The notes beneath the pieces were generated by a model. The model did not search any database. It had not been told where the DNA came from and saw nothing but the letters and a program-made list of their open reading frames with translations. Made by a program: the position numbers and the translations under genes. Shown here piece after piece: positions 181 through 44,142 of a stretch of DNA of 44,573 bases; the first letter of the stretch is position 1; the number at the start of each line of letters is the position of its first letter. The DNA comes from an uncultured Acidobacteriota bacterium (GTDB lineage: Bacteria; Acidobacteriota; UBA6911; CAINFC01): assembly GCA_903847975.1 (NCBI GenBank), contig CAINFC010000142.1:1-44573 (forward strand), in the 5' to 3' direction.

Positions 181-219
181 GGCTGATTTTTCAGCCCTAT
201 CTGTGCTATTTTTAAGTGG
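181..219 (+). promoter_or_regulatory. hairpin and extended -10-like element before the gene at 220
   Basis: A perfect hairpin, GGCTGA-TTTT-TCAGCC, occupies 181-196. It is followed by TGCTATTTT (204-212), which fits an extended -10 (TGnTATAAT-like) and ends 7 bases before the ATG at 220. No Shine-Dalgarno sequence is visible before that ATG, so a leaderless transcript is possible. No good -35 is seen. The function is inferred. Confidence 0.35.
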
Positions 220-2959: not shown

Positions 2960-3295
2960 GTGAAAATCGGAATAACGGAATTTATCGATTGCGCCCATTT
3001 TCTGCCGGAACACGACCGCTGCTGCCACCTTCACGGGCACACCTACAAGGTGGATGTAGCAATTGCCGGAGATCATGGGGCCGGCATGGTCATGGATTTT
3101 TCCGAGCTGAAAAAGCGGGTCAAGGAGTGCCTGGCCGAGTACGACCACCATTCCTGGAACGAGTTCCTGGACTTCCCGTCGGTGGAAAACATCTGCGAGC
3201 TGCTTTTCTCCCGCTTGAAAACCGTGCTGGGGAAACCCCTGGCGGTCCGCGTAGGGGAGGGGGAGGGAAAGTGGGCCGAACTGTCCGAACTTTAG
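2960..3295 (+). CDS. queD: 6-pyruvoyl-tetrahydropterin synthase / QueD family enzyme
   Basis: This 111-residue protein starts at GTG (2960), preceded by a G-rich ribosome site. It carries the zinc ligands of the PTPS/QueD fold: H13 (CAHFLP) and H25 and H27 (HLHGHTY). A Cys at position 21, four residues before HGH, is the catalytic Cys position of 6-carboxytetrahydropterin synthase. The YDHHSWNE segment supplies the conserved Asp-His pair. QueD converts dihydroneopterin triphosphate to 6-carboxytetrahydropterin for queuosine/7-deazaguanine synthesis. No queC, queE or folE lies nearby, so the pathway assignment rests on the motif. The length is slightly short for the family. Confidence 0.88.
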   Translation: MKIGITEFIDCAHFLPEHDRCCHLHGHTYKVDVAIAGDHGAGMVMDFSELKKRVKECLAEYDHHSWNEFLDFPSVENICELLFSRLKTVLGKPLAVRVGEGEGKWAELSEL

Positions 3296-3430: not shown

Positions 3431-4654
3431 ATGAAACAGCTGCTCATCGTTGCCGGAGAGCCTTCGGCCGACGCCTATGCGGCCAGGCTCATCGAGGAGC
3501 TCCATCACCTGGACACGGCGGCGGAGCTGCAGGTTTGCGGTCTGGGCGGGCCGGGGATGGAGCGGGCCGGGGCACACCTGCTGCACGATTACCGCAAGCT
3601 GGCGCACATCGGCCCCTGGGAGGCCATTTTTCACCTGCCCCAGTACCTGCGGGTTTTTCAGGATCTTTTACGATGGGCCGAAACCCACCGGCCTCCCGTT
3701 GCCGTGCTGCTCGATTTTCCGGATTTCAACCTTCGTCTGGCCCGTCGGCTGAAACTTTTAGGGATCAAAGTATTCTATTACATCAGCCCGCAGGTTTGGG
3801 CCTGGCGGCCCGGGCGGGTGAAAGAGATAAGCCGGTGGGTTGACAGGATGTTTGTGATTTTTCCGTTTGAAGTCGATTTCTATAAGCGGCACGGGGTGGA
3901 TGTGCAGTTTATCGGACATCCCTTGTTGGAAAACGCGGACAAGGGGCCCCGGAAAGGCGTGCTGCGCCGCATGCTGCGCATCCCGAAGAACGTTCCCCTG
4001 GTTACCCTTTTTCCGGGCAGCCGGAGCAAGGAAGTGCGGCGGATTCTTCCCCCGATGCTGAATGCCTGCACTCTGATTGCCGGCCAGCGGACCTGCCATT
4101 TTGCCATTGTCAAGGCTCCGAACCTGGACGAGGATCTCCTGCAGCATGTCTGGCAGGAGACGGCGCATCATAACCCGCAGCTCTCCGAGGAGAGCCTGCC
4201 CATCTCCCTGGTGGATGTCGACCCGGAAGAAGCCCTGGCGGACAGCGATGCGGCCATGGTCAAAAGCGGCACTTCCACGCTGCAGGCCGCCCTGGCGGGA
4301 ACCCCGTTCGTCATGATTTACAAGCTGTCCTGGCCGAGCTGGATGGTTGCCCGACTGATGGTTCGCAGCCCGTTCGCCTGCATCGTCAACCTGATTGCCG
4401 GCAAGGAGGTGGTCCCCGAGTTCCTGCAGAGGGACGCCCAGGCCGAAGAGATCGCGGCGGAGATCCTGCACCTGCTGGACAGTCCGGCCGCCAGGGAATC
4501 GATGCGCGACGAGTTCCAGGCGATCCGCGCCCGGCTGGGCACACATCAGCCTTCCGCGTTGCTGGCCTCCATTCTGGCGACGGAACTGGAGCTGAAGAAA
4601 AACCCGCGCCTCTGGCATTTTCCCTCGCAACCCATCTCGCAATTCATTCATTAG
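3431..4654 (+). CDS. lpxB: lipid-A-disaccharide synthase
   Basis: LpxB joins UDP-2,3-diacylglucosamine and lipid X to make the lipid A disaccharide at the inner membrane. The product begins MKQLLIVAGEPSADAYAARL, the diagnostic LpxB opening, and contains YISPQVWAWRPGR, FPFEVDFY, VQFIGHPLLE, FPGSRSKEV and KSGTSTLQAAL, all hallmark segments of this GT-B (GT19) enzyme. At 407 residues it is near the usual 380-400. An in-frame start 30 codons upstream would add residues with no family counterpart, so I chose 3431. No lpxA, lpxD or lpxK is beside it. It shows that the host has an outer membrane with lipid A-type glycolipid. Confidence 0.95.
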   Translation: MKQLLIVAGEPSADAYAARLIEELHHLDTAAELQVCGLGGPGMERAGAHLLHDYRKLAHIGPWEAIFHLPQYLRVFQDLLRWAETHRPPVAVLLDFPDFNLRLARRLKLLGIKVFYYISPQVWAWRPGRVKEISRWVDRMFVIFPFEVDFYKRHGVDVQFIGHPLLENADKGPRKGVLRRMLRIPKNVPLVTLFPGSRSKEVRRILPPMLNACTLIAGQRTCHFAIVKAPNLDEDLLQHVWQETAHHNPQLSEESLPISLVDVDPEEALADSDAAMVKSGTSTLQAALAGTPFVMIYKLSWPSWMVARLMVRSPFACIVNLIAGKEVVPEFLQRDAQAEEIAAEILHLLDSPAARESMRDEFQAIRARLGTHQPSALLASILATELELKKNPRLWHFPSQPISQFIH

Positions 4655-29605: not shown

Positions 29606-30394
29606 TTATCCTTTTTCCTTTAGGACTTCATGAAGAAGGGAGGCGCTGTCGGGGTCCAGAAACAGAACGGAACCCTCCCTGGTGCGAATGACCGAGGCCG
29701 GGCATGCCTGGCTGATTTCCCCGTTCAGGGTGCGAAAAACGGCCTGCGCCTTGGTGGGCGCCGGCACCACGGCAAAAACATGTCGGGCGGCCATCAGGGC
29801 CGGAACCGTCAGGGTGATGGCCTGCTGCGGCACGTCCTCCAGCCGCTCGAAGCACTTGTCGTTGACCTGCTGGCGGCGGCAGGCGATGTCCATCTCCACG
29901 ACCTTAACCCGGAGCGGATCCTGGAAGAAGGCCACATGCGGGTCGTTGAAGGCAATGTGCCCATTTTCGCCGATTCCCAGGCAGGAAATGTCGGTGGGGT
30001 GCTCTTCCAGCAGCCGGGCATAGCGCCGGCATTCCCCTTCGACGTCGGCCGCCGTTCCGTCGATATACCAGGCTGCCTTCAGGCCGACCCTGGAAAACAG
30101 CCGCTCGCGCAGGTACCAGCCGAAGCTGGCCGGCGAATCCAGGGGCACGCCGACATATTCGTCCATGTGGAAGCCGTTGACCCGCGACCAGTCGATTCCC
30201 GGTTCGGCGGCCAGCCCGTCGATGAACTCGTTCTGGGAAGGCGCCGACCCGAGGATGATGTTGACCTCCTCCCGGGACGCCAGCAATCTGCGGATGACCC
30301 CGGCGACCTCGCAGGCCGCGGCCGCGCCCATTTCGGCGCGGTTCGGGTAGATACGGACGGTCAGCCGGTCGCGGGAAAATTCAGTGTGGCGCAT
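29606..30394 (-). CDS. NagB-like glucosamine-6-phosphate deaminase family protein
   Basis: This 262-residue member of the NagB/6-phosphogluconolactonase fold has NGFHMDEYVGV (D78, matching NagB D72) and CLGIGENGHIAFNDP. In E. coli NagB the second motif is VDGHIAFNEP, with catalytic D141, H143 and E148; here these align with N144, H146 and D151. The proton-transfer residues are thus altered, while substrate phosphate contacts such as NIILGSAPSQNEF look plausible. It may deaminate or isomerise an amino-sugar phosphate other than glucosamine-6-phosphate. It lies 14 bases after the Gfo/Idh gene and 7 before the RraA-like gene. Confidence 0.82.
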   Translation of the reverse strand: MRHTEFSRDRLTVRIYPNRAEMGAAAACEVAGVIRRLLASREEVNIILGSAPSQNEFIDGLAAEPGIDWSRVNGFHMDEYVGVPLDSPASFGWYLRERLFSRVGLKAAWYIDGTAADVEGECRRYARLLEEHPTDISCLGIGENGHIAFNDPHVAFFQDPLRVKVVEMDIACRRQQVNDKCFERLEDVPQQAITLTVPALMAARHVFAVVPAPTKAQAVFRTLNGEISQACPASVIRTREGSVLFLDPDSASLLHEVLKEKG

Positions 30395-30408
30395 GGCGGT
30401 GCCGCTCC

Positions 30409-31767
30409 TCAGACCGTTACTTCCCAGCCCTTTTCGTAGGTGCGGGTCCAGTGGGTCATGGCCTCGGGGTCATCGAGAATGCGGCCGTTTTTCGGGTTGA
30501 CCTTAAGAGAGCGGCCCATGCGCTGGGCGATGATCCCCAGCTGGATCAGGAGGTTGCTCTTGTGGTTGGGAACGATGCCGGAGTTGAGCTTTTCGCCCTT
30601 TCGTATGGCGTCGAAAAAGTTCTGGAAGTGCAGCGCATCCAGCTTTTCCGAAGGATTCATCTTTTCGGTCGGATCGGCCTTGATCTGGCTGCGGACCTCC
30701 TTGACCATCTGGTCCTTGTTGTCGTAGATCCAGTAGTCGTTCCCTCCGCCGATGACCAGGGTGCCCTTCTCCCCGAAGAACATCACCCCCACCGACTCCC
30801 CTTCCAGCTTATGCGGGTTGCTGCTGTGGTCTTCCCAGGTCACCGCGGTGCGGTTGTCGAACTGCATGCTGATGACCTGGGTGTCGGGCACCTCCCAGTC
30901 GTCTCCGAGGAAGGCATAGCGGCCGCCGACCGAGGTGACCAGCGTCGGGTACTCGAGGTCCATGCCCCAGCGCAGCAGGTCCATGGTGTGCACGCCGTTG
31001 GCCAGCGCTTCGCCCAGCCCCCAGTGCCAGAACCAGTGCCAGTTGTAATGGACGATGTTGTCCCTGTAGGGCACCCGCGGCGCCGGCCCCTGCCAGAGGT
31101 CCCAGTCGAGCCATTCCGGCACCGGCACCTGCCTGCCCACCCCGATCGGCTGGCGGCTGTTGGCATACCAGCTTTTGCCGAAGTAGACCCTTCCGATGGT
31201 TCCCTCTTTGAGCTCCTGGATTCCCTGGACCACGTTGGGCCAGGAGCGACGCTGGTTGCCGACCTGCAGGACGCGCCGGTACTTGGCTTCCGCCTGAATG
31301 AGCATCTCTCCTTCGGCCGGGGAGTAGCAGCAGGGCTTTTCGAGGTAGACTTCCTTGCCGGCGCGCATCGCCAGGATGGCCGCCAGGGCGTGCCAGTGGT
31401 CGGGAGTGGCGATGAAGACGGCGTCGAAATCCTTCGACTCCACCATCCGGCGCACGTCCTTCTCGGTCTTCACCGTGTTGCCGGCGATTTCCTGGATCCG
31501 CGCCGCGCAGGTGGCCAGGGCCCGGGTGTCGACATCGCACAGGAAGGTGACTTCGCAGCCTTCCTGCTTGGCGAAGTTGGAGGCCAGGGCCAGCCCGCGG
31601 GAGTGAATGCCGATGCCCCCCATGCGGATTTTTTCATTGGCGCCCGGAATGTTCGCGTAGCTCCGGGCGGTGAAGCCGGGCAGCGCGCCGCCTACCGCCA
31701 GCAGGGATGCGGCCGAAGCGCCGGTTTGAAGAAAGTCCCTTCTGCTTTGCACTCGATGGGTTGTCAT
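30409..31767 (-). CDS. Gfo/Idh/MocA family oxidoreductase, Tat-exported
   Basis: The start at 31767 is supported by AGGAAGG upstream; a further ATG-like start 9 codons earlier would only lengthen the leader. The N-terminus MTTHRVQSRRDFLQTGASAA is a Tat signal, so the 452-residue NAD(P)-dependent enzyme probably acts in the periplasm. The Rossmann part (IRMGGIGIHSRG), FIATPDHWHALAA and the EKPCCYSPAEGE catalytic-lysine motif are typical, as is the C-terminal open sheet (VMFFGEKGTLVIGGG). Such Tat-linked Gfo/Idh proteins often oxidise sugars or act as glycosidases via a transient 3-keto step. It lies 13 bases after the MFS gene. Confidence 0.88.
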   Translation of the reverse strand: MTTHRVQSRRDFLQTGASAASLLAVGGALPGFTARSYANIPGANEKIRMGGIGIHSRGLALASNFAKQEGCEVTFLCDVDTRALATCAARIQEIAGNTVKTEKDVRRMVESKDFDAVFIATPDHWHALAAILAMRAGKEVYLEKPCCYSPAEGEMLIQAEAKYRRVLQVGNQRRSWPNVVQGIQELKEGTIGRVYFGKSWYANSRQPIGVGRQVPVPEWLDWDLWQGPAPRVPYRDNIVHYNWHWFWHWGLGEALANGVHTMDLLRWGMDLEYPTLVTSVGGRYAFLGDDWEVPDTQVISMQFDNRTAVTWEDHSSNPHKLEGESVGVMFFGEKGTLVIGGGNDYWIYDNKDQMVKEVRSQIKADPTEKMNPSEKLDALHFQNFFDAIRKGEKLNSGIVPNHKSNLLIQLGIIAQRMGRSLKVNPKNGRILDDPEAMTHWTRTYEKGWEVTV

Positions 31768-31780
31768 GACTGTTTCCTTC

Positions 31781-33073
31781 CTATTTCTTTTCACCGGCGG
31801 AGCCGGGAACGGTTCGGATGATGCCCAGCCTGCCGATGAGCAATTGTACCAGGATAAGCGCCAGCGGATAGAGCCCGGCGCAGGCGATGAAAATGGGGGA
31901 AAACCCGTAGAGGTCGACCACCTTGCCGATGTAGAGCTGCGACAGGGCGCCCATCAGCGAGCCCAGCGCCCCGCCCAGCCCGGTGACGGTGCCCACCGCG
32001 TTTTTGGGAAAGACCTCGGCCGGCAGGGCGATGTTGCCCCAGCCGGCATGGCAGAAGGTCATCCCGGCGACGATGGCCAGGGCCAGCGCCGGCTGGCTGA
32101 TCTGCGGGGCGGCCACGCAGAAGACCAGCATCAGCAGGGTCATCACCGACATGGTGGTTTTGCGGGCGGTGTTGAGCTCCCAGCCGCGGCTGATCAGGTA
32201 GCGCGGCGAGGCGCCCATGAACAGGTTGCCGAGGGCGGCCACCGCGTAAGGGATCCAGACGAACATGCCGATCTGCTTCAGGTCGAAGCCGTGGCGGTTC
32301 TGGAAGTAGAGCGGCATCCAGAAAAGCAGAAAATAGCTGATCGGGTCGGTGAGCGCCCGCACCAGCACGCAGCCCCAGGTTTCCTTCATCCGCAGCAGGC
32401 TCAGCAGCGGGGCGGCCTTTTCGCTGAGGTTGTCTTTGGGCTGGTCGGAGAGGATCATCCGCCGCTCCTCCTCGCTGATCCTCGGGTGATCCCCGGGCAG
32501 CTGGAAGAGAGCCATCCAGGCAGCCACCCAGACGAAGCCCAGCGCGCCGGTGACCAGGAAGGCGGCCTGCCATCCCCACTGCACGGCGATGAAGGAGACG
32601 ATCGGCGCGGCGGCCATGGAGCCGAAGGCGGTGCCGGCGTTGAATATGCCGATGGCCAGGGCCCGGTCGCGCATCGGGAACCACTCGCTGACCGCCCGCA
32701 CCCCGCCGGTAAAGCTGCCCGGCTCGAAGACCCCGAGCAGGAAGCGGAAGAAGGAAAACTGGGTGACGGTGGCCGCGAAGATGTGGGCCATGTTGGCCAG
32801 CGACCAGCCGGAGACGAAGATGGTAAAGCCCTTCCGCGTGCCGACGTAATCGATGATCCGCCCGCTGACGGCATACATGATCCCGTAGCTGATCAGGAAC
32901 CAAAAGTTGATCTCGCCGTAGTTGGCGTTGGAGAGGTTGAGTTTTTCCTTGATGGTGCCGATCAGCACGGAAAGCGTCTGGCGGTCCAGGTAGTTGAGGG
33001 CCGAAGCCAGGCAAAGCAGGATGGCGATGTACCACCGCAGGTAGGGAATGGCTTTTTTACGGGTATCGTTCAT
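31781..33073 (-). CDS. MFS transporter, hexuronate/sugar-acid (ExuT-like) type
   Basis: This 430-residue protein has twelve hydrophobic segments. It opens with YIAILLCLASALNYLDRQTLSV, the anion:cation symporter (ACS) signature, and continues with GRIIDYVGTRKGF (loop 2-3 motif), GVFEPGSFTGGVRAVSEWFP and a central charged loop (EEERRMILSDQ). ACS members import hexuronates, galactonate, gluconate and similar acids by proton symport. The start at 33073 is set by GGTGA 8 bases upstream. It heads a four-gene operon with the Gfo/Idh, NagB-like and RraA-like genes. Confidence 0.88.
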   Translation of the reverse strand: MNDTRKKAIPYLRWYIAILLCLASALNYLDRQTLSVLIGTIKEKLNLSNANYGEINFWFLISYGIMYAVSGRIIDYVGTRKGFTIFVSGWSLANMAHIFAATVTQFSFFRFLLGVFEPGSFTGGVRAVSEWFPMRDRALAIGIFNAGTAFGSMAAAPIVSFIAVQWGWQAAFLVTGALGFVWVAAWMALFQLPGDHPRISEEERRMILSDQPKDNLSEKAAPLLSLLRMKETWGCVLVRALTDPISYFLLFWMPLYFQNRHGFDLKQIGMFVWIPYAVAALGNLFMGASPRYLISRGWELNTARKTTMSVMTLLMLVFCVAAPQISQPALALAIVAGMTFCHAGWGNIALPAEVFPKNAVGTVTGLGGALGSLMGALSQLYIGKVVDLYGFSPIFIACAGLYPLALILVQLLIGRLGIIRTVPGSAGEKK

Positions 33074-34130: not shown

Positions 34131-36776
34131 ATGGATACTACTAAATCGGAATCGATCCGAGCGAAAGCGGGCCTGATCGGAGAAATCCTTTCCCACTACC
34201 GGATTATCGAAAAGCTGGGCCAGGGCGGCATGGGGGTGGTTTACCACGCCGAGGACCTCCGCCTCGGCCGCTCCGTAGCTCTGAAGATCCTGGCCCCGGA
34301 GCTGGTCGCCGAGGAAAAGGCGCGGCAGAGGTTCCTGCAGGAAGCCCGGGCCGCGGCCATGCTGGATCACCCCAACATCTGCACCATTTACGAGGCGGAG
34401 CAGGTCAGCGAAGACTTCTTCGTCATTTCCATGGCTTACTACTCCGGTCAGACCCTCAAAAACCGGATTGCCTGCGGCAGGCTGCCCGCGGAAGAAGCGC
34501 TGGACCTGGCCATCCAGGCGGCGCGGGGCCTGGCCAAGGCCCATGCCCATGGCGTCCTGCACCGGGATATCAAGCCCTCCAACCTGCTGATCACCGAGGA
34601 CCGTCGGCTGAAAATCGTCGACTTCGGGCTGGCCAAGCTGACCACGGAAGCGAAGCTGACCACCACCGGACGGGCTATGGGTACCGTGGCCTACATGTCT
34701 CCGGAGCAGGGGCGCGGCGAGCAGGTCGGCCCGGAAGCGGATGTCTGGTCCCTCGGTGTGGTCCTCTATGAAATGCTCTCCGGGGAGCTCCCTTTCAAGG
34801 GCAGCTTCGAGGTGGCTGTCCTGCAGTCCATATTGAAGGATAAGCCGGTCACCCTGGGCCGCCTGGTCGACGGCGTTCCCCTGGACCTGGAGCGGATCGT
34901 CGAGCGGGCGCTCGAGAAGCAGGCCAGAAAGCGGTATGCCGACGCATCGGAAATGCTGGCCGATCTCGAGAATCTCAGTAAAAAGGTAAACTCGGGCAAG
35001 ACGTGGTCCCAGCCTTCCCCCAGGCGGCTGGATTACCGGCGGAGCCGCTTCCTGGGTTACCTTCTCTCCGCCGTCGCCGGAGCTGCCCTGGTGGCGTCGG
35101 TATGGTGGCTGCTGCCGCAGGAGGAATCCTCTCGCTTCCCCCTGACCCAGCCCAGGCTGGTCCGAAGCGGAGACGGCTGGCAGGACGATCCCGCCCTTTC
35201 GCCCGACGGCACCCGCATCGCCTTTGCTTCCAGCCGGGAAGGCAACCGGGATATCTACCTGATCGGAGTAAGGGGAGGAAACCCGGTGCGTCTGACCCAT
35301 GACCCCGCGGACGAATACCGCCCGACCTGGTTTCCGGATGGAACGGCGATCGCCTTTGTAAGCCGGAAGGGCGGTACTTCCGGCATCTGGAAGATGGATC
35401 AGATGGGCGGCGGCGCCATTCTTCTGGTTGGAGAAGGGGCCTCGGATCCGGCGATTTCGCCGGACGGGAGCCGCATCGCCTTTTCCATCCCGGGGCCGAG
35501 CGGGGACAACCGGATCGGGCTGGCCTCCCTGCACGATCCGGCCGGAATCACCCTGCTCACCGGAGAAGAGGACGGGCTGTGGTCCCACCGGTCCCCCAGC
35601 TGGTCTCCGGACGGCCGTTCTCTCTGCTATCAGGACCAGCAGGATCTCTGGCTGGTTTCCGCGGCGGGTGGTCCGGCGCAACGCCTGACGAGGGAGGGGA
35701 AGCGCGACCGCCGGCCGGTCTGGTCGGGCGACGGGAAGTACATCCTGTTTTCTTCCTGGCGCGACGATACCCTCGCCCTGTGGCGCGTCCCGGCCGGCGG
35801 AGGGTCTGCGGAGCGGCTCACCCTGGGCAGCGGCTACGAGCAGGCCCCCAGTCTGTGCCGGGACGGATCCCGGCTGGCCTTCGCCACGCAGATGATTCAC
35901 CGCGAGCTGTTGCTTCGCGATATGGATTCGGGAAAGGAGGTGAAGCTGCAAAGCGGAATAAAGACGGACCTGGAGGTAGCCATCTCCCCGCAAGGGGATC
36001 GCCTGGTGGATGCCTCCCTTCACGGAGGCAACAGCGTCAACCTCTGGATGCAGGCACTGGAGGGGGACCGCCCGATCGGGTCGCCGGTCCGGCTGACCGA
36101 TGATCCGGGCTCGGCCTCCCATCCGGTCTTTTCTCCGGACGGGCAGTGGATTGCCTACTACCGCATCAATGACCGGCAGCGGGATATTTACGTGATCTCC
36201 GCTTCGGGCGGCCGTCCGCAGCGGATTACGGATGACCCGGCGGCGGACATCCACCCTTCCTGGTCCCCGGATGGAGCGAAACTAGCCTATTCCTCCGAGC
36301 GCGGCGGGAGCAGCCGGATCTGGGTCATCCCGGTTCGGGAAGGTCGTCCGGCCGGCGAGCCCGTTTGCCTGACGGATGGAAAATGGACCGCCCGTTTGCC
36401 GGTCTGGTCGCCCGACGGAAAGAAAATTGCCTACCTGGGAAGCCGGGGAAGCCAGTGCGAGGTCTGGATCATGCCTCAGGGCGGCGGTCCGGATGGAAGG
36501 CAAATCACGAACGGTGCGGAAGCGCAGCACCTTCGGTGGGACGCGGATACGAATTCTATCCTGGTCAGCGGAAACTGGGGGGGGAGCAATTTTGTTCTGA
36601 AAAGGGTGTCTCCGGACGGCAGGAATGTCGCTCTCCTGGTGCCGGAGGTCAATTTCGGTCCCCTGTTCTTTTCCGCCACCTTTGACCTGACACAAAAAGG
36701 AAAAAAGCTTCTTTATTTCAGCGGAGATATCCAAGGCGCAATATGGATTCTTGAGTTGCAGAATTTGACCCGTTAA
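34131..36776 (+). CDS. Ser/Thr protein kinase with TolB-like beta-propeller
   Basis: This 881-residue membrane protein starts at ATG 34131. The kinase domain (about 22-285) has GQGGMG (G-loop near 30-35), K52 (VALKIL), catalytic HRDIKPSN (H144, D146) and DFG (D164); an activation loop with many Thr residues (LTTEAKLTTTG) precedes the APE-like YMSPEQGRG. A single membrane helix lies at 308-329 (LGYLLSAVAGAALVASVWWLL). The outer region is a propeller of PD40/TolB-type blades (SPDGTRIAFASSREGNRDIY, SWSPDGAKLAYSSERGG). The outer propeller probably senses a ligand and signals to the inner kinase. The small gene 36806 begins 29 bases later, so they may be co-transcribed. Confidence 0.93.
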   Translation: MDTTKSESIRAKAGLIGEILSHYRIIEKLGQGGMGVVYHAEDLRLGRSVALKILAPELVAEEKARQRFLQEARAAAMLDHPNICTIYEAEQVSEDFFVISMAYYSGQTLKNRIACGRLPAEEALDLAIQAARGLAKAHAHGVLHRDIKPSNLLITEDRRLKIVDFGLAKLTTEAKLTTTGRAMGTVAYMSPEQGRGEQVGPEADVWSLGVVLYEMLSGELPFKGSFEVAVLQSILKDKPVTLGRLVDGVPLDLERIVERALEKQARKRYADASEMLADLENLSKKVNSGKTWSQPSPRRLDYRRSRFLGYLLSAVAGAALVASVWWLLPQEESSRFPLTQPRLVRSGDGWQDDPALSPDGTRIAFASSREGNRDIYLIGVRGGNPVRLTHDPADEYRPTWFPDGTAIAFVSRKGGTSGIWKMDQMGGGAILLVGEGASDPAISPDGSRIAFSIPGPSGDNRIGLASLHDPAGITLLTGEEDGLWSHRSPSWSPDGRSLCYQDQQDLWLVSAAGGPAQRLTREGKRDRRPVWSGDGKYILFSSWRDDTLALWRVPAGGGSAERLTLGSGYEQAPSLCRDGSRLAFATQMIHRELLLRDMDSGKEVKLQSGIKTDLEVAISPQGDRLVDASLHGGNSVNLWMQALEGDRPIGSPVRLTDDPGSASHPVFSPDGQWIAYYRINDRQRDIYVISASGGRPQRITDDPAADIHPSWSPDGAKLAYSSERGGSSRIWVIPVREGRPAGEPVCLTDGKWTARLPVWSPDGKKIAYLGSRGSQCEVWIMPQGGGPDGRQITNGAEAQHLRWDADTNSILVSGNWGGSNFVLKRVSPDGRNVALLVPEVNFGPLFFSATFDLTQKGKKLLYFSGDIQGAIWILELQNLTR

Positions 36777-36805
36777 CCCATTCATTTTCAATGCAAGGAG
36801 GATTT

Positions 36806-37114
36806 ATGGCCAGGAAGCAGAAGGAAGCAGTTCCAATCAAGGATGTATCCAGGGAAGTATCGGAGGCGCTGACAGTCGTTGCCGGAAAGTACAAGGAAAT
36901 CAATGTCCTGTTGAAAAAGTGCTGCTCCATGGAAGTGATTGCCAAAATTAAAGGTCCGTACAGGGACTCGGGGGATCCCATTGGAAATTGCGCTGTTCCG
37001 GATGAGCAGGGAGTGGACTTCACGGTGGGGAATGTTCAAACGGTTATCCAAAACCACATGGAATGCGATCGTGCCATCCTTCCTCTCATTAAGAAAGCAG
37101 GTCGGAAAAAGTGA
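36806..37114 (+). CDS. small Cys-containing protein, possible radical SAM substrate
   Basis: This 102-residue protein starts at ATG 36806 with a near-perfect AAGGAGGA site 4 bases upstream. It is highly charged, with Cys at 39, 40, 62 and 87 and many Lys; no signal peptide or known domain is seen. DNA composition is visibly more AT-rich than its neighbours. The adjacent radical SAM/SPASM gene begins 18 bases downstream and is in the same frame; only the TGA at 37112 separates them. Small proteins next to SPASM maturases are often peptide precursors (RiPPs), and the Cys residues fit thioether or other modification, but no leader/core split is evident. It could also be a free-standing regulator of the kinase. 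Confidence 0.6.
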   Translation: MARKQKEAVPIKDVSREVSEALTVVAGKYKEINVLLKKCCSMEVIAKIKGPYRDSGDPIGNCAVPDEQGVDFTVGNVQTVIQNHMECDRAILPLIKKAGRKK

Positions 37115-37132
37115 CGCCCGGCATGTCCGGTC

Positions 37133-38389
37133 ATGGCAGAAAGCAGCTCTCGGATGCGGGAAGGGGAACCATCGCCGGCCTCAGGCCTGAAAGCGCTCCA
37201 GGCGCTGGAGCTGGTGCTGACCGCTTCCTGTAACCTGGGCTGCGGCTACTGCTACCAGAACGTAAAAAATCCCGGGCGCATGTGCTGGGAGGTGCTGCAG
37301 CCGGCGCTCGGGCTGCTTTTCGATTCCGCCCCGAAGAAAATGGATGTCCTTTTCCTGGGCGGGGAGCCGCTGCTGGCCAAAGCGCTGCTGCACCGGGCCG
37401 CGGAGTTTATCCGTAAAAACCGGCCGCCGGGCAAACGGTTCCGACTGCAGGTCGGAACCAACGGGCTGCTTCTGGACCGGGCAACGGCCGATTTCCTGGT
37501 CCGCGGCGGCTTCGAAATCCGGCTGAGCTTCGACGGAATCGCTGCCGCCCAGGATCTTCGAGGCCGGAACACCTTTCGCCGGCTGGACCGGCTGCTGGAC
37601 CGCCTTCGGGAAGAGCACCCTTTCCATTTTGCCCGGCGGGTGGTTCTCTGCCTCTCCGTTTCCCCGTCAACCGTCGGGCATTTACCGGAATCCGTCCGGT
37701 ATTTCTTTTCCAAGAACGTTTCCCGGATCCTGATCACGCCGGTCCTGAACGGAGACGCCGAATGGCGGCTGGAGCGGATCGCGGAGCTGGACCGGGCCTT
37801 CCGGCAGGTGTTCGACGACAGCGTGCGGCTGTGGAAACGGAAAAGGAAAATTCCGGTCCAGCTTTTTCGCAAATCGGGTTTGTTCGGTTCCGGCGGATCC
37901 GGGCAGGAGAGGGAATGCGGCTTCCTGAAGGGGCTGTCGCTCACGGTCATGCCGGACGGCCGGCTCTTCGGGTGCACGGTGCTGGCGGAGGGCTACCAGC
38001 GCTACCCGGACCAGCCGCTTTTCGCGGAGAGCGTGGCGGCGGCCCTGCGGATCGGCGATCTGCGCGGGCCGGGGCTGGAGGAAAGGTACGCGGCGTTCCT
38101 CGATGCCGCCCGTCGAAGCAGGATGTTCAGCCACCGGGCGGAGAAGCACTCGGGCTACGGCACCTGCCTCGATTGTTCCTTTCTGACGGAATGCCGGCTC
38201 TGCCAGGCCTCCTGCCGCTATGTGCCCGGCAACCGGGATCCGCTGCGGGTGTCCGATTTCGGGTGCGCCTTCCACCGGGTTTCGCTGCAGTACCGCCGCC
38301 TCTTTCCGGTGCGCGTCACGCCCCTCGAGCGGCTGTTGCTCACCTCCCGCGCCGTTTCGCCCCGTGGGGCGCACACGCCAGAGCCGTAA
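37133..38389 (+). CDS. radical SAM/SPASM-domain protein
   Basis: This 418-residue enzyme has the radical SAM cluster C33-x3-C37-x2-C40 (SCNLGCGYCYQN), the SAM-binding LFLGGEPLLA, and a strand LSFDGIA. The C-terminal region has a set of Cys for auxiliary clusters: ECGFLKGLSLTVMPDG and LFGCTVL, then CLDCSFLTECRLCQASC and FGCAFH. This is the SPASM pattern of anaerobic sulfatase-maturing and peptide-modifying enzymes. No sulfatase lies in the window, so the small Cys-containing protein just upstream is the most likely substrate. No strong ribosome site is visible at 37133, consistent with translational coupling to the upstream gene. Confidence 0.88.
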   Translation: MAESSSRMREGEPSPASGLKALQALELVLTASCNLGCGYCYQNVKNPGRMCWEVLQPALGLLFDSAPKKMDVLFLGGEPLLAKALLHRAAEFIRKNRPPGKRFRLQVGTNGLLLDRATADFLVRGGFEIRLSFDGIAAAQDLRGRNTFRRLDRLLDRLREEHPFHFARRVVLCLSVSPSTVGHLPESVRYFFSKNVSRILITPVLNGDAEWRLERIAELDRAFRQVFDDSVRLWKRKRKIPVQLFRKSGLFGSGGSGQERECGFLKGLSLTVMPDGRLFGCTVLAEGYQRYPDQPLFAESVAAALRIGDLRGPGLEERYAAFLDAARRSRMFSHRAEKHSGYGTCLDCSFLTECRLCQASCRYVPGNRDPLRVSDFGCAFHRVSLQYRRLFPVRVTPLERLLLTSRAVSPRGAHTPEP

Positions 38390-38605: not shown

Positions 38606-40114
38606 TCAGGATTCCGGGCCCGCGATGGCCGCCTGCAGAAGCGACTCGGGCGTCCATTCCCCGGCCGCCCGCACCGGGCCGAGCCGACCGCGGCTCATGA
38701 CTGCCATCCGGTGGCACATGCCGAAGAGCTCCGGCAGATAGGAGCTCACCAGCAGGACGCCCTTCCCCCGGGCGGCGCACCCGGCGATGGTTTCGTAAAC
38801 CCACGCCTTGCTGCCGATGTCCACGCCGCGGGTGGGCTCGTCGAGCAGCAGGATGTCCGCCTCCTGGTGCAGCAGCCTGGCCAGGGAAACCTTCTGCTGG
38901 TTGCCGCCGGAGAGCCTGCCCGCCGGCTCGTCGGGCGATTGGGCCCTGACGCCCAGTCGCTCCATCCAGCGGGCCGCCTGCTCCTTCCGCCGCTCCAGGT
39001 CCAGCCATCCCATCCGCGCATAGCACCGGCTGCGGGTCAGCGTCACGTTGTCGGCAATCGGCATCGGCAGCAGCAGCCCCTCTTCCTTGCGGTCCTCGCT
39101 CAGGTAGCCGAACCCCTGTCGGAGCCGGTCGGCGGGCGTCTGCCGGACGGGCGCCTCCGTCCCGTCCCCCAGTATCACGCGGCCCCCGGCGGCCGGCAGC
39201 AGCCCGAAAAGGGTGCGCAGCAGCTCGGTGCGCCCGGATCCGGCCAGACCGGCAATGCCCAGGATTTCCCCGGCGTGCAGCTCGAACCCCGCGTTTTTCA
39301 GCAGCGGCGGGGCGCGCAGCTCCCGGACCGAGAGCACCGCTTTCCCCCAGTCGGGCGTTTGGCGGGAGGGGAACAGCTGCGCGATTTCTCTCCCCACCAT
39401 CCGGGCGATAATCGCTTCGTCCGAAATTTCCGCCAAGGGGGCGGTCAGCACGCTCCGGCCGTCGCGCAGCACGGTGCAGCGGTCGGCCACCTGGCGCACC
39501 TCCTCCAGGAAGTGGCTGATATAAATCAGGCTCACCTGTTCCTGCTTCAGCCGCCGGATCAGGGAAAAGAGGGCCCGGGCGTCCTCCTGCGAAAGGCTGC
39601 TGGTCGGCTCGTCCATCAGCAGGATGGCGGTGCGCGCCGCCAGGGCGCGACCGATCTCCACCACCTGCTGCGCCGGCAGAGGCAGTTCGCCCACCCGCCG
39701 GTCGGGCGAAAGCTCCGGATGGCGGAAGGGGTCCAGCACTTCGCGGGCGCGGCGGCGCATGGCCTGCCGGTCGAGGAGTCCGCGCCGGCCGGGCTCCATC
39801 CCCAGGAGGATATTTTCCGCCACCGTCAGGTGCGGGCAGAGGGAGAGCTCCTGGTGGATCAGGACGATCCCCTGCTTCCGGGCCTGGAAGGGGTCCGCCG
39901 GCCGGAACTCCCTGCCGCGCAGCTCCATCGTTCCGCGGTCCGGAGCCAGCTCCCCGGAAAGGATCTTCATCAGGGTGCTTTTGCCGGCCCCGTTCTCCCC
40001 GATCAGGGCGTGCACTTCCCCCGGAAGCAGCTCCAGGCTGACCCCGTCCAGCGCTCGGGTGGCGCCGAAGCTCCGGGCGATGCCCTCGATGCGCAGAACC
40101 GGCCCGGAATTCAC
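38606..40114 (-). CDS. sugar ABC transporter ATP-binding protein (RbsA/XylG/MglA type)
   Basis: This 502-residue protein carries two ABC domains in tandem. The first has Walker A GENGAGKST (39-47), the Q-loop VLIHQELSL and Walker B AILLMDEPTSS. The second has the family-typical altered Walker A (GLAGSGRTEL), YLSEDRKEEGL, signature LSGGNQQKVSLARLL and Walker B ILLLDEPTRGVD. This is the CUT2 class for monosaccharides such as ribose, xylose or galactose. It starts at GTG 40114. Its partner, a CUT2 membrane permease, is not present in the window. It lies 25 bases after the substrate-binding lipoprotein gene. Confidence 0.93.
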   Translation of the reverse strand: MNSGPVLRIEGIARSFGATRALDGVSLELLPGEVHALIGENGAGKSTLMKILSGELAPDRGTMELRGREFRPADPFQARKQGIVLIHQELSLCPHLTVAENILLGMEPGRRGLLDRQAMRRRAREVLDPFRHPELSPDRRVGELPLPAQQVVEIGRALAARTAILLMDEPTSSLSQEDARALFSLIRRLKQEQVSLIYISHFLEEVRQVADRCTVLRDGRSVLTAPLAEISDEAIIARMVGREIAQLFPSRQTPDWGKAVLSVRELRAPPLLKNAGFELHAGEILGIAGLAGSGRTELLRTLFGLLPAAGGRVILGDGTEAPVRQTPADRLRQGFGYLSEDRKEEGLLLPMPIADNVTLTRSRCYARMGWLDLERRKEQAARWMERLGVRAQSPDEPAGRLSGGNQQKVSLARLLHQEADILLLDEPTRGVDIGSKAWVYETIAGCAARGKGVLLVSSYLPELFGMCHRMAVMSRGRLGPVRAAGEWTPESLLQAAIAGPES

Positions 40115-40139
40115 ACGGCGCCCCCCATCGGGAAGAAGG

Positions 40140-41126
40140 CTACGGCTCGACGGCCGGCGGATGAATCCATTCCTGGATGTCCGGGGCGTTCATGTTTTCG
40201 GCCGTCACCATGACCACCCCGGTGTCGATCCGCTGCGGCACCGCCTTTCCCTGCAGGTGGTCCAGCATGCTTTTGACTCCCAGGTAGCCCATCTTGTACG
40301 GGTTCTGCACCAGCAGCCCGTGAATCTCCCGCCGGGCCATGGCCTCCAGGAAGGCGTTGGTGGCGTCGAATCCGACCAGGGTGACCTTGCCCGCCTTCCC
40401 GGCGTCCTGCAGGGCCAGCAGGAACCCGGCGGTGGTGGATTCGTTGGGGCAGAAAATCCCCTGGATCTCATCTCCCAGGCGCTGCAGCAGGTTTTCCGCG
40501 GCCCGCTTGGCGGTCTCGCGGGTGGCCCCGGCGTACTGGTCGGCGGAGAGCACAACGATCCCCGGGTGGTGGCTCTTCATCTTGGCGAGGAAGCCCTCCT
40601 CGCGGGCCGTGGCGCTGGCCGATCCCTCCTGGAAGCGCAGCAGCACCACCTTGCCGCTGTCGAACAGCAGCGAGGCCAGGTGCCCGGCGGCGATCTCCCC
40701 GCTGCGGAAGTTGTCGGTGGCCACGAAGCTCAGGGTGTTCGGGCTGTCCAGGGCCGAATCGATGATCACCGCCGGGATGCCCGCCTGCCGCGCTTCCTCC
40801 ACCGGCCGCACCAGGGCCCGGTTGTCCAGCGGGGCCAGCACGATGCCGTGCACCCCCTGGCTGACGAAGCCCTCCACCACCTGGATCTGCTGCTCGCGGT
40901 CGTCCTCCCGCAGCGGGCCCTTCCAGGTGAGGCGCACCTTTTTATCTCCGCGGTTCTGCTCTTCGGCGGCCTTGCGGGCCCCGGCATGCACCGATTTCCA
41001 GAATTCCATGTTGGTAGCCTTGGGGATCACCGCGATCCGCAAGGCGTTCCGGTCGAAGCCCCAGTCGCACCCTGCCGGCAGCAGGGCGGCCAGCAGGGCG
41101 GCGGCCATCCGGATTTTTTTCTTCAT
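40140..41126 (-). CDS. sugar-binding lipoprotein of a CUT2 ABC transporter
   Basis: This 328-residue protein starts at ATG 41126 (GGGAA upstream). It has a lipoprotein signal (MKKKIRMAAALLAALLPAGC) and a Peripla_BP_4 fold: IAVIPKATNMEFWKSVHAGARKAAEE, VHGIVLAPLDNRALVRPVEEA, GIPAVIIDSAL, FVATDNFRSGEIAAGHLA and IQGIFCPNESTTAGFLLAL. These match ribose/galactose-type binding proteins. It should capture an unidentified sugar in the periplasm. It lies between the SIS-domain gene and the ABC ATPase gene. Confidence 0.92.
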   Translation of the reverse strand: MKKKIRMAAALLAALLPAGCDWGFDRNALRIAVIPKATNMEFWKSVHAGARKAAEEQNRGDKKVRLTWKGPLREDDREQQIQVVEGFVSQGVHGIVLAPLDNRALVRPVEEARQAGIPAVIIDSALDSPNTLSFVATDNFRSGEIAAGHLASLLFDSGKVVLLRFQEGSASATAREEGFLAKMKSHHPGIVVLSADQYAGATRETAKRAAENLLQRLGDEIQGIFCPNESTTAGFLLALQDAGKAGKVTLVGFDATNAFLEAMARREIHGLLVQNPYKMGYLGVKSMLDHLQGKAVPQRIDTGVVMVTAENMNAPDIQEWIHPPAVEP

Positions 41127-41154
41127 ACAGGTTCCCATCTGCGGCCATCGGCGT

Positions 41155-41916
41155 TCAGGCGGGGAAAATGCGCCGCTTGTATTCCTCCAGAGCCGCTTCC
41201 AGCCGCTCCTTCGGCGTTCCTTTTCCCGGGGCGTTGTGCGAGGGGTGGATGTAAAGCGGAACCCCCCGCGCGGTCAGGATTTCGGCGATGGTGGCCACCG
41301 TCATCCACACCACGGCCACGAACCCCACGGTGGACAGCGGGCCGATCTTTTCCGGCACCCCGGGCAGCTCCTGCGCGGCGTCTTCCGCCGGGACGCAGGT
41401 GTCGATCACCGCGTCGGCCAGCTCGAACAGCTTGTAGCCGCTGGAGTGCCGGGCCTTCGCCTCGGCAAAGGCCGCCGCCGACCCGGTGGCCACCACCTTC
41501 AGCCCCTGGCGCCGGGCCTCGAGGGCCACGTCGATGTTCACCTGGTTCAGCCCGGAGTGCGAGAAGATCCAGAGCGTGTCGCGCCGGTCGAGCGCGTGGC
41601 TCTTCATGATCTCCGTGCCATAGCCCTCCACCCGCTCCAGGAACACGAACTGGTTGACTCCCATGTCGCCGACGATGTGCGTGAAATAGGACAGCGGGGT
41701 CTCGATGATCGGGTGGAAGCCGACGAAGCTCCCGATGCGCGGATACATCTCCTCCACCGGCAGCGTGGCGTGCCCGCACCCGAAGGTGTGCACCCAGCGC
41801 TCCGCCTGGATGGAGTCGGCCATCCACTCCGCCGCCCGGCAGATGGGTTCCGTCTGCGTGGCGCCGATCCGGCTCATGGTCTGCTGCGCTTTTTCCAGCC
41901 ACTGGAAGGCAATCAT
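41155..41916 (-). CDS. SIS-domain phosphosugar-binding protein
   Basis: This 253-residue protein has a SIS fold: RWVHTFGCGHATLPVEEMYPR at the N-terminus and TLWIFSHSGLNQVNIDVALEARRQGLKVVA, the phosphosugar-binding strand-helix. It resembles the UPF0309/SIS group found near sugar-kinase genes. Such proteins isomerise or hydrolyse sugar phosphates, or bind them to regulate genes; here there is no DNA-binding domain. It lies 27 bases after the MFS gene and 28 bases before the lipoprotein gene. Confidence 0.87.
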   Translation of the reverse strand: MIAFQWLEKAQQTMSRIGATQTEPICRAAEWMADSIQAERWVHTFGCGHATLPVEEMYPRIGSFVGFHPIIETPLSYFTHIVGDMGVNQFVFLERVEGYGTEIMKSHALDRRDTLWIFSHSGLNQVNIDVALEARRQGLKVVATGSAAAFAEAKARHSSGYKLFELADAVIDTCVPAEDAAQELPGVPEKIGPLSTVGFVAVVWMTVATIAEILTARGVPLYIHPSHNAPGKGTPKERLEAALEEYKRRIFPA

Positions 41917-41943
41917 AGGTATTTCCTTTCGTTTTATCGGAGT

Positions 41944-43173
41944 TCAGCGGGCCCCCCCAAGGGGCGCCCGGCAGGAGTTGAGTTTCCGGCTGACCAGGGC
42001 GAACACCAGGGCCTGCAGCAGGAGAGCTGCGGGCACGATGGTCAGGGAGGCGCTCAGCCCGACCCGGTCGCCGAGCAGGCCGGTGAGATAGGGAAGGGTC
42101 ATTCCCCCGGAAAGGGCCATGACCAGGCAGATGCTGAAGGCGGTGCCCGAGAGCGAGCTGTAGCGGTCGCCGGCCATGCCGAGCACCAGGGGGAAGACAC
42201 TGGAGAGGCCGGTCCCGGTGAGGACCAGGCCCAGCACCGACGCGGCCAGGCCGCTTCCCCGGAAGAGCAGCAGCGAGCCCGCCAGGGTGATGCCCATGGA
42301 GGCGGCGAGCAGCGCCCGGCTGGAAAAGCGCTTCAGCAGCAGCGGCAGCAGGATGCGCACCGCCATCATGGCCAGCCAGTAGAGGGAAAGGCAGACCACC
42401 GCCCGCGAGGGCTCCAACCCGAGCTTTTCGGTAAACAGCGTGGAGGACCACCCGCCGACGGTCATCTCCATTCCGCTCTGAAAAAAGAGCATCCCCCCGA
42501 GCAGCAGCAGGACCGGCTCGCGGGCCAGGGTCCATACTTCAGCCATGGGCAGGCCGTGCGATTTCTTGGGCGGCGGGAAGCGCAGCGCGCCGAGGAAAAC
42601 GATCGGCGCCAGGATCAGCGCCCCGGCGGCGGCGATGATCGCCCGGCTGGGAACGGCCGCGGAAAGCGAGCCGTAGGCCAGCGGCGTGCCGAAGGCTCCC
42701 AGGCCGAAAAAGACGCCCAGCAGGCTCAGCCCGGAGCTGCGCCCTTCGGCGCTGAGGTCGGCGACCAGCGCGCTGGTGCCGCCGTTGATCACCCCGCCGC
42801 CCAGCCCCACCAGGAAGATCGCCGGGAGAGCCCAGAAAAAGACGGGGGTCCAGGCCAGCAGCTCCAGGCCGGCAAGCATCAGCGAGCAGCAGACGATCAG
42901 CAGGATCTTGTAGCCGTAGCGGTCCACCACCGGGCCGAAGACCAGCGATCCCAGCAGCGCGCCCAGGCTCATCCAGGTAAAGAGGGTGCCCCCCTCGGCC
43001 TTGCTGAGCTGGAAGCGGTCGGTGAGCGCCGGCAGCACCGCGCCGAGCAACGAAATGCCCACCCCGAAGAGCAAAATGGCCAGGAAGCAGGCGGCCAGCA
43101 CCCCGCGGCGCCGGAACGGCCGGGGCCCGGCCGGCGGGCCGTCGTAAGGGAAGCGGGTCGGGGTGCCGGGCAT
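41944..43173 (-). CDS. MFS transporter, FucP-like
   Basis: This 409-residue protein has twelve hydrophobic segments. It opens with AACFLAILLFGVGISLLGAVLPAL, with the loop GPVVDRYGYKILL between segments 2 and 3, GLGGGVINGGTSALVADL, and second-half motifs LLGGMLFFQSGMEMTVGGWSS and TGTGLSSVFPLVLGMAGDR. These suggest the FHS (FucP-like) family of sugar symporters, which includes fucose, glucose and N-acetylglucosamine carriers. It lies between the ROK and SIS-domain genes, 9 bases after the ROK stop. Confidence 0.85.
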   Translation of the reverse strand: MPGTPTRFPYDGPPAGPRPFRRRGVLAACFLAILLFGVGISLLGAVLPALTDRFQLSKAEGGTLFTWMSLGALLGSLVFGPVVDRYGYKILLIVCCSLMLAGLELLAWTPVFFWALPAIFLVGLGGGVINGGTSALVADLSAEGRSSGLSLLGVFFGLGAFGTPLAYGSLSAAVPSRAIIAAAGALILAPIVFLGALRFPPPKKSHGLPMAEVWTLAREPVLLLLGGMLFFQSGMEMTVGGWSSTLFTEKLGLEPSRAVVCLSLYWLAMMAVRILLPLLLKRFSSRALLAASMGITLAGSLLLFRGSGLAASVLGLVLTGTGLSSVFPLVLGMAGDRYSSLSGTAFSICLVMALSGGMTLPYLTGLLGDRVGLSASLTIVPAALLLQALVFALVSRKLNSCRAPLGGAR

Positions 43174-43182
43174 CCTTGGTCC

Positions 43183-44142
43183 TTAATCCCCGGGATGCAG
43201 CGCCAGCCAGGCGGCCCCGTACAGGGCCGACAGGCGGTCGAGGCGCGAGGCAGCCAGCCGCACGGCGCGCATGCTTTCCGGCTGGGCCCAGAGGCGGGCT
43301 TCGGCGGCAATGCGCTCCAGGAAGCGGACGGCGGGGCCGAACAGCCCGCCGCCGAAAAGAACGATTTCCGGGTTGAAGAGGCTGACCAGGTTGGCGACGG
43401 CCATTCCCCAGCAATCGATGGCCTGGTCCAGGATGCGCACCGCCGTCGGATCCTCCTGCAGGTAGGCGTCGAAAACCTGCTGGAACGGGACCGGCCCGGC
43501 CGGCAGCGGATGGCCGCCGAAATTCCGGTCCCCCTCCCGGGAGAGGGCCAGCCGAACCTGGCGCGATATCCCCGTGCCCGAGGCGTAATATTCGAAGCAG
43601 CCGGCCTCGGCGTATTCGCGCCGGTACGGGCGGCGCAGGGCCATCCAGCCGACGGCTCCCGCCGCTCCGCCGGCGCCCCGCAGGGTCTTTCCGTCGAGCA
43701 GGATTCCCGCGCCGATGCCGGTGCCCACGGTAAGGAATAGGGCGCTGCGGCATCCCTGCGCGGCCCCGAGCCAGGCCTCGCCCCGTATGCCGCAGGCCCG
43801 GTCGTCCTCGATGCGCAGGCAGGAGATCGCGGAGGCTTCCGGCATGGCCCGCAGTTCCTCCCGCAGGGGGTAGCGGTTCCAGCCGGGAATATTGGGGGCC
43901 CAGACCCGGCCCTCTTCCGGGTAGTAAATGCCGGGTATGCTGACGCCGAGGCCGTCGGGCGTAGAGCCCGCTTCCGCGGCCAGGCCGGCCAGCCGCCGGA
44001 CTTCGGCCTGCAGCAGCGCGCCGGCCTCCTCTCCCTTTCGCCCGGCCAGCGGCACTTCCCGGTGGCCGCAGAGGGTGCCGTCCGATTCCACCAGGGCTCC
44101 GGCCAGCTTGGTTCCCCCGAGATCGAGCGCCATTACGGTCAT
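43183..44142 (-). CDS. ROK-family sugar kinase-like protein with reduced zinc site
   Basis: This 319-residue protein has the ROK phosphate-binding DLGGTKLAGALVES at the N-terminus, a DGLGVSIPGIY segment, IEDDRACGIRGEAWLG (catalytic Asp region) and LTVGTGIGAGILLDG. The usual zinc-binding GHM...CxCGxxGCxE is here GWMALRRPYRREYAEAGCFE, so the His and two of the three Cys are missing while GCFE stays. Structural zinc binding is thus unlikely. It may still phosphorylate a hexose or amino sugar, in line with the neighbouring SIS and NahK-like genes. No DNA-binding domain is present. It heads the leftward operon. Confidence 0.86.
   Translation of the reverse strand: MTVMALDLGGTKLAGALVESDGTLCGHREVPLAGRKGEEAGALLQAEVRRLAGLAAEAGSTPDGLGVSIPGIYYPEEGRVWAPNIPGWNRYPLREELRAMPEASAISCLRIEDDRACGIRGEAWLGAAQGCRSALFLTVGTGIGAGILLDGKTLRGAGGAAGAVGWMALRRPYRREYAEAGCFEYYASGTGISRQVRLALSREGDRNFGGHPLPAGPVPFQQVFDAYLQEDPTAVRILDQAIDCWGMAVANLVSLFNPEIVLFGGGLFGPAVRFLERIAAEARLWAQPESMRAVRLAASRLDRLSALYGAAWLALHPGD

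Follow-up and report, generated by a model that had tools for sequence, protein, structure and literature searches.

The kinase, small-protein and radical SAM genes

The window, the whole stretch of 44,573 nucleotides analysed here from an uncultured Acidobacteriota bacterium, holds three co-directional genes on the forward strand in the order kinase, 102-residue ORF and radical SAM gene. The first (34131–36776) encodes a receptor Ser/Thr protein kinase of 881 residues, the cassette-specific orthologue discussed below, in which a kinase domain (Pfam Pkinase, 7.6e-50) with HRDIKPSN and DFG motifs is combined with a PD40/TolB-like propeller (PD40, 7e-61) and one transmembrane segment near residue 310. 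Its stop at 36776 lies 29 nt 5' of the small gene, in agreement with an earlier sequence-only reading of this locus that had placed a receptor-like Ser/Thr kinase at this distance upstream. The second gene (36806–37114) encodes a small Cys-containing protein of 102 residues, a candidate substrate or precursor with no family match. As that reading had described, it is preceded by a strong ribosome-binding site (AGGAGG, 36796–36801, 4 nt 5' of the ATG) and encodes four cysteines, namely Cys39-Cys40 (36920–36925, in the context CCSMEV), Cys62 (36989–36991, NCAVPDE) and Cys87 (37064–37066, ECDRAI). The third gene (37133–38389) encodes a radical SAM/SPASM enzyme of 418 residues. It starts 18 nt past the small-gene stop and is without a Shine-Dalgarno site of its own. 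Both features fit the previously suggested translational coupling of the enzyme gene to the small gene, but fall short of proving it.

We consider the small gene to be real because Markov shuffles of the gap between the kinase and enzyme genes gave an ORF of at least 102 residues in only 1.6% of cases, and because an ORF in the same position, on the same strand and of the same size class is found at 13 of 13 related loci. We found no real relatives of its product in its own genome or in 60 genomes of the phylum, where two weak matches both contained internal stops, and no match among plasmids, PHROGs, Pfam or NCBIfam. These searches gave no sign of a small protein that is common apart from the enzyme, an outcome that would have spoken against the pairing proposed in the earlier reading. 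A PDB match with an E-value of 0.88 was discarded as chance, and the predicted structure of the protein alone (pLDDT 42) is not interpretable.

As read from their translations, the genes on the 5' side of the trio are an isochorismatase-like gene, an MFS transporter and an oxidoreductase, and a sugar ABC importer and amino-sugar genes follow on the 3' side. Because these flanks consist of metabolism and transport genes, we take the kinase, the small gene and the enzyme alone as the cassette. The flanking genes at 29606–31794 and 38606–44142, again judged from translations, resemble amino-sugar catabolism and include a deaminase-like gene, an oxidoreductase, an ABC importer, a binding protein, a SIS-domain protein, an MFS gene and a ROK kinase. 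Elsewhere in the window, between 12000 and 24000, the GC content falls to about 0.51–0.57 compared with 0.60–0.70 around it, possibly marking a foreign segment.

A SPASM enzyme close to peptide-modifying maturases

The assignment of the third gene to the SPASM-type radical SAM enzymes, already made from the bare sequence, was confirmed by its cysteines. The radical SAM cluster motif CX3CX2C (C33, C37 and C40; 37229–37252) and seven cysteines of the SPASM region (C262, C281, C345, C348, C354, C357 and C378; 37916–38266) are all invariant in an alignment of 23 relatives. The Pfam Radical_SAM model matches at 3.8e-11; the Pfam SPASM model gives no match to the window enzyme despite the seven SPASM cysteines. 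Among the NCBIfam models the best is PapB (NF047865; 9.9e-30, 103.9 bits), which does not reach its curated cutoff of 340, followed by tungsten-cofactor, Nif11, DynA and QhpD-type maturases. PapB was the top family for all three enzymes tested, with scores between 104 and 146 bits. The QhpD model (TIGR03906) gave 55.7 bits for the window enzyme and 90.8 bits for the enzyme of genome G027, below its cutoff of 453. A search with the single enzyme sequence against the genome contigs returned no match.

An AlphaFold model computed from 23 sequences (pLDDT 84) has CteB, the SCIFF maturase (PDB 5WGG/5WHY), as its closest fold, with a Z-score of 33.1 and 3.1 Å over 339 residues of the predicted structure. 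Further fold matches were anSME, ChlB, TigE and SuiB, all of them, like CteB, SPASM enzymes that modify peptides or proteins. CteB differs from the window enzyme in its precursor, in its gene neighbours and in the stretch that precedes the shared core, about 90 residues long in CteB and only about 20 in the window enzyme. Since the alignment starts at CteB residue 90, there is no space for a fused N-terminal RRE of about 80–90 residues, and such a domain is absent. The pVip model reached 38 bits over residues 27–141 only, with no full-length viperin match; because the full SPASM domain with its cysteines is present, the enzyme is not a viperin.

Distribution and inheritance in the phylum

With the enzyme profile at an E-value of 1e-40 or better, matches were found in 20 of 396 genomes of the phylum, falling into two groups. 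Group 1, to which the window belongs, comprises 13 loci in 12 genomes, and at these loci a kinase-PD40 gene lies directly 5' on the same strand, followed by the small ORF and then the enzyme. The gene pair noted in the window therefore does recur in other genomes. The small ORF of group 1 measures 74–137 residues and occurs at all 13 loci, in 12 of them behind a Shine-Dalgarno-like site.

The kinase had been regarded as a mere neighbour of the pair, a view that the comparison of genomes corrects. Although a group-1 genome may contain up to 33 kinases matching the window kinase, the best match genome-wide was the kinase beside the enzyme in 9 of 9 other group-1 genomes searched. These enzyme-adjacent kinases scored 458–692 bits at 38–43% identity, over the full length except in G018, compared with 388 bits for the best other kinase; two group-1 kinases are incomplete, that of G067 because of a contig end and that of G018 because of a masked stretch. 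A kinase profile run on the 396 genomes gave 1201–1280 bits for the cassette kinases, 762 and 819 for the fragments and 668 or less for all others. As this profile had been built from the same cassette kinases, we left them out one by one; the full-length cassette kinases then still scored 929–1085 bits and a 573-residue fragment 678, with the best paralogues elsewhere at 687 or less. For the G067 kinase, which had no part in building the profile, the score per residue was about 1.4 bits, versus about 0.8. Kinase and enzyme orthologues occupy an identical set of 12 of the 396 genomes, and kinase distances rise with enzyme distances (r 0.36, a value reached in 25 of 2000 permutations). Mean identity among the cassette kinases is 39% in the propeller, little below the 42% of the kinase domain. 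By these sequence comparisons, the kinase, the small gene and the enzyme are a unit inherited together, of which the kinase is an integral, orthologous member. Carriers of the cassette turn up in scattered families, a pattern suggesting that the complete unit has been transferred or lost.

The small proteins behave differently from their neighbours: the flanking proteins share a mean identity of 34–39% across the group-1 loci, whereas the small proteins can barely be aligned, the window protein aligning to the others with z of 2.2 at most. They contain between one and six cysteines, whose positions vary between loci, so that the conservation of cysteines looked for in the small protein was not found; in G067 and G196 the single cysteine sits at the extreme C-terminus. 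The window protein has the PapB spacing in Cys39-x3-Glu43 and Cys62-x3-Asp66, as well as Cys87-Asp88. We rejected CX3(D/E) as a shared motif of the clade, as it occurs in 3 of 13 group-1 proteins with 3.4 expected in shuffles and hence at chance frequency. The pattern C-x(1,4)-P, present in 8 of 13 with 5.8 expected, is not significant in this clade.

In the maximum-likelihood tree of the enzymes, group 1 (99) is sister, with a support of 89, to group 2 (98), an Aminicenantes-type family of over sixty enzyme matches. Of 142 genomes of that class, 49 carry such an enzyme. Here the precursors adjoin the enzyme and have a conserved leader and a variable core with cysteine, for example PCPGARP, SCNGRPIADRS and GCPRETPIIR. 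A model built from the leaders alone, with the cores removed, found 38 distinct ORFs in group-2 loci, and all 38 have a cysteine within the last 22 residues; 10 of the matches lie outside the training set, two further ones listed being copies of training loci. C-x(1,4)-P is found in 26 of 33 sister-clade sequences with 12.2 expected (0 of 2000 shuffles), a set less fair than that of the leader model because it was chosen partly by eye and by cysteine. The leader model gave E-values above 0.1 with the group-1 small proteins and, since these can barely be aligned among themselves either, we do not regard a leader as demonstrated in the window clade. Profile comparison of the group-1 N-termini with the sister leader gave a probability of 2% and a score barely exceeding all 15 shuffles, and homology was not accepted on this basis.

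A sensor or regulator lies within 1.5 kb in 38 of 45 group-2 loci. These proteins are Reg_prop propellers with a Ser/Thr kinase or with histidine kinase/receiver/AraC or SpoIIE output, zinc-ribbon kinase-TPR proteins and wHTH-TPR proteins. At L135 (4982–5185), L180 (4780–4977) and L186, precursor and Reg_prop kinase share a strand and are about 30–90 nt apart, with the enzyme gene divergent from the precursor, so that the linkage of peptide and kinase can be separated from mere co-transcription with the enzyme.

A possible cross-linked partner of a receptor kinase

The three genes would make up one functional cassette in which the small protein is, very probably, the substrate of the enzyme, judging from the family, fold and clade of the latter. 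SAM would be cleaved at the CX3CX2C cluster to give a 5'-deoxyadenosyl radical, which would take a hydrogen from an acceptor residue in the small protein, and a cysteine thiol would then close onto this acceptor, most likely as a thioether. This chemistry is favoured because the closest matches in family and fold, PapB and CteB, are thioether formers; thioether formation is known for PapB, CteB and QhpD (PMC9413430, PMC8326336, PMC7876137), and PapB joins Cys-Xn-Asp/Glu pairs while tolerating varied spacing (PMC9413430). The cross-linked protein might modulate the receptor kinase in one of two ways, by serving the propeller as ligand or cofactor or by acting on the output side of the kinase, as its regulator or effector. 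It is the conserved linkage that points to a signalling role. On balance, we lean slightly towards this whole reading, with the small protein cross-linked by the enzyme and its modified form taking part in signalling together with the orthologous receptor kinase.

The idea that the small protein and the SPASM enzyme form a modification pair has gained from the 13 loci that keep the pairing and from the clear precursors of the sister clade, with the substrate role and the product themselves inferred from these comparisons. For group 1, the precursor argument is by analogy, from the position of the small genes and the kinship of the enzymes with group 2. We count against the proposal that the window-clade small proteins barely align with each other or with the sister leader model, that their cysteine positions vary, that CX3(D/E), the PapB motif, is at chance in the 13 proteins, that neither a protease nor an exporter belongs to the cassette, and that the small protein may be a partner and not a substrate. 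Extended to the phylum, the proposal would give each receptor, be it a propeller Ser/Thr kinase, a Reg_prop hybrid kinase, a kinase-TPR or a wHTH-TPR protein, its own fast-evolving peptide as a ligand or effector, cross-linked by a dedicated PapB-like radical SAM enzyme, a tentative generalization that we hold to be possible rather than probable.

The small protein might instead be a folded subunit, for example of a kinase complex, stiffened by internal Cys-Asp/Glu thioethers. QhpD makes three such thioethers in QhpC (PMC7876137), and this pair of quinohemoprotein amine dehydrogenase likewise consists of a protein of about 100 residues with cysteines and acidic residues and an adjoining SPASM enzyme. 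The 102 residues of the window protein show no evident division into leader and core, its three Cys-Glu or Cys-Asp pairs would suit such bonds, and QhpD is among the top models for the enzymes of the window and of G027. We nevertheless think this unlikely, because a single cysteine at the extreme C-terminus, as in G067 and G196, and small proteins that cannot be aligned are unlike a structural subunit, the QhpD cutoff is not reached, and neither QHNDH dehydrogenase subunits nor other qhp genes were seen in the cassettes. That the small proteins are so poorly conserved speaks for a further model, in which the small ORF encodes a kinase chaperone or regulator and the enzyme modifies something else, such as the kinase propeller; since enzymes of this kind stand beside clear precursors in the sister clade, we find this quite improbable.

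A hypervariable peptide beside a conserved enzyme, and tandem cores in the sister clade, would also be expected of an ordinary secreted RiPP, an antimicrobial or cell-cell peptide whose production the kinase only regulates. Genes for a secreted peptide usually come with a protease or exporter, neither of which is part of the group-1 cassette, and one would not expect a purely regulatory kinase to have orthologues at every locus of the clade. Moreover, the same enzyme-peptide pair is accompanied by sensors of differing fold, as one would sooner expect of a peptide in the service of the sensor than of a secreted toxin, and we judge this explanation improbable. Anti-phage defence, in which the kinase and the radical SAM enzyme would correspond to kinase-associated viperins or PD-T4-6, has very little to recommend it: the PADLOC PD-T4-6 model matches the kinase domain with 292 bits and pVip the enzyme weakly, but the PADLOC kinase matches reflect the common kinase domain only, and the surroundings resemble sugar metabolism and transport rather than a defence island.

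Among known systems, the PapB or ranthipeptide maturases (NF047865; freyrasin) resemble the cassette in that a SPASM enzyme adjoins a small Cys-containing precursor, and differ in that the window-clade enzymes score far under the cutoff, CX3D arrays are missing and the genes are joined to sensor proteins. We place the system among known kinds rather than calling it wholly new, because TOMM clusters precede it in pairing a large Ser/Thr kinase with modified-peptide genes (TIGR03903; Haft 2010, PMC2887384). TOMM clusters, unlike the window cassette, make azoles from Cys, Ser or Thr without a radical SAM enzyme, and TIGR03903 matched the window kinase with 141.8 bits, in the kinase domain only and short of its cutoff of 705.75. 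In open-licence papers we found no description of Acidobacteriota or Aminicenantes radical SAM peptide systems or of kinase-linked ranthipeptides. The evidence suggests a receptor kinase unit that incorporates a radical SAM peptide system of the PapB-like kind, apparently undescribed in that literature.

Genomes of Acidobacteriota carry numerous propeller Ser/Thr kinases, and to our knowledge the ligands and targets of these are almost all unknown. A cassette tying one orthologous receptor kinase to a dedicated small protein and a peptide-modifying enzyme offers a concrete way to learn what these receptors sense or what they control. If the proposal is true, radical SAM peptide chemistry would extend from natural products into receptor signalling.

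For enzymology, the sister family is a source of many further cores that are short and have a single Cys. At L045, a precursor (214–708, forward strand) in which an 18-residue unit around GCEGGKPVIK occurs six times in tandem lies beside a PapB-like enzyme (800–1900) and makes an attractive multi-core test substrate. L184 has two precursor genes (3007–3234 and 3904–4155) separated by a piece of another radical SAM ORF; in the second gene, the core GCLGRPIADR occurs twice in tandem. The 161-residue precursor of L185 (412–897), with two leader-core halves, is apparently duplicated. In a Sumerlaeota sequence (L044, 5035–5790), a 251-residue ORF ending in DFDCG/NFDC repeats, just 5' of a PapB-like SPASM enzyme, is probably another precursor of the ranthipeptide type.
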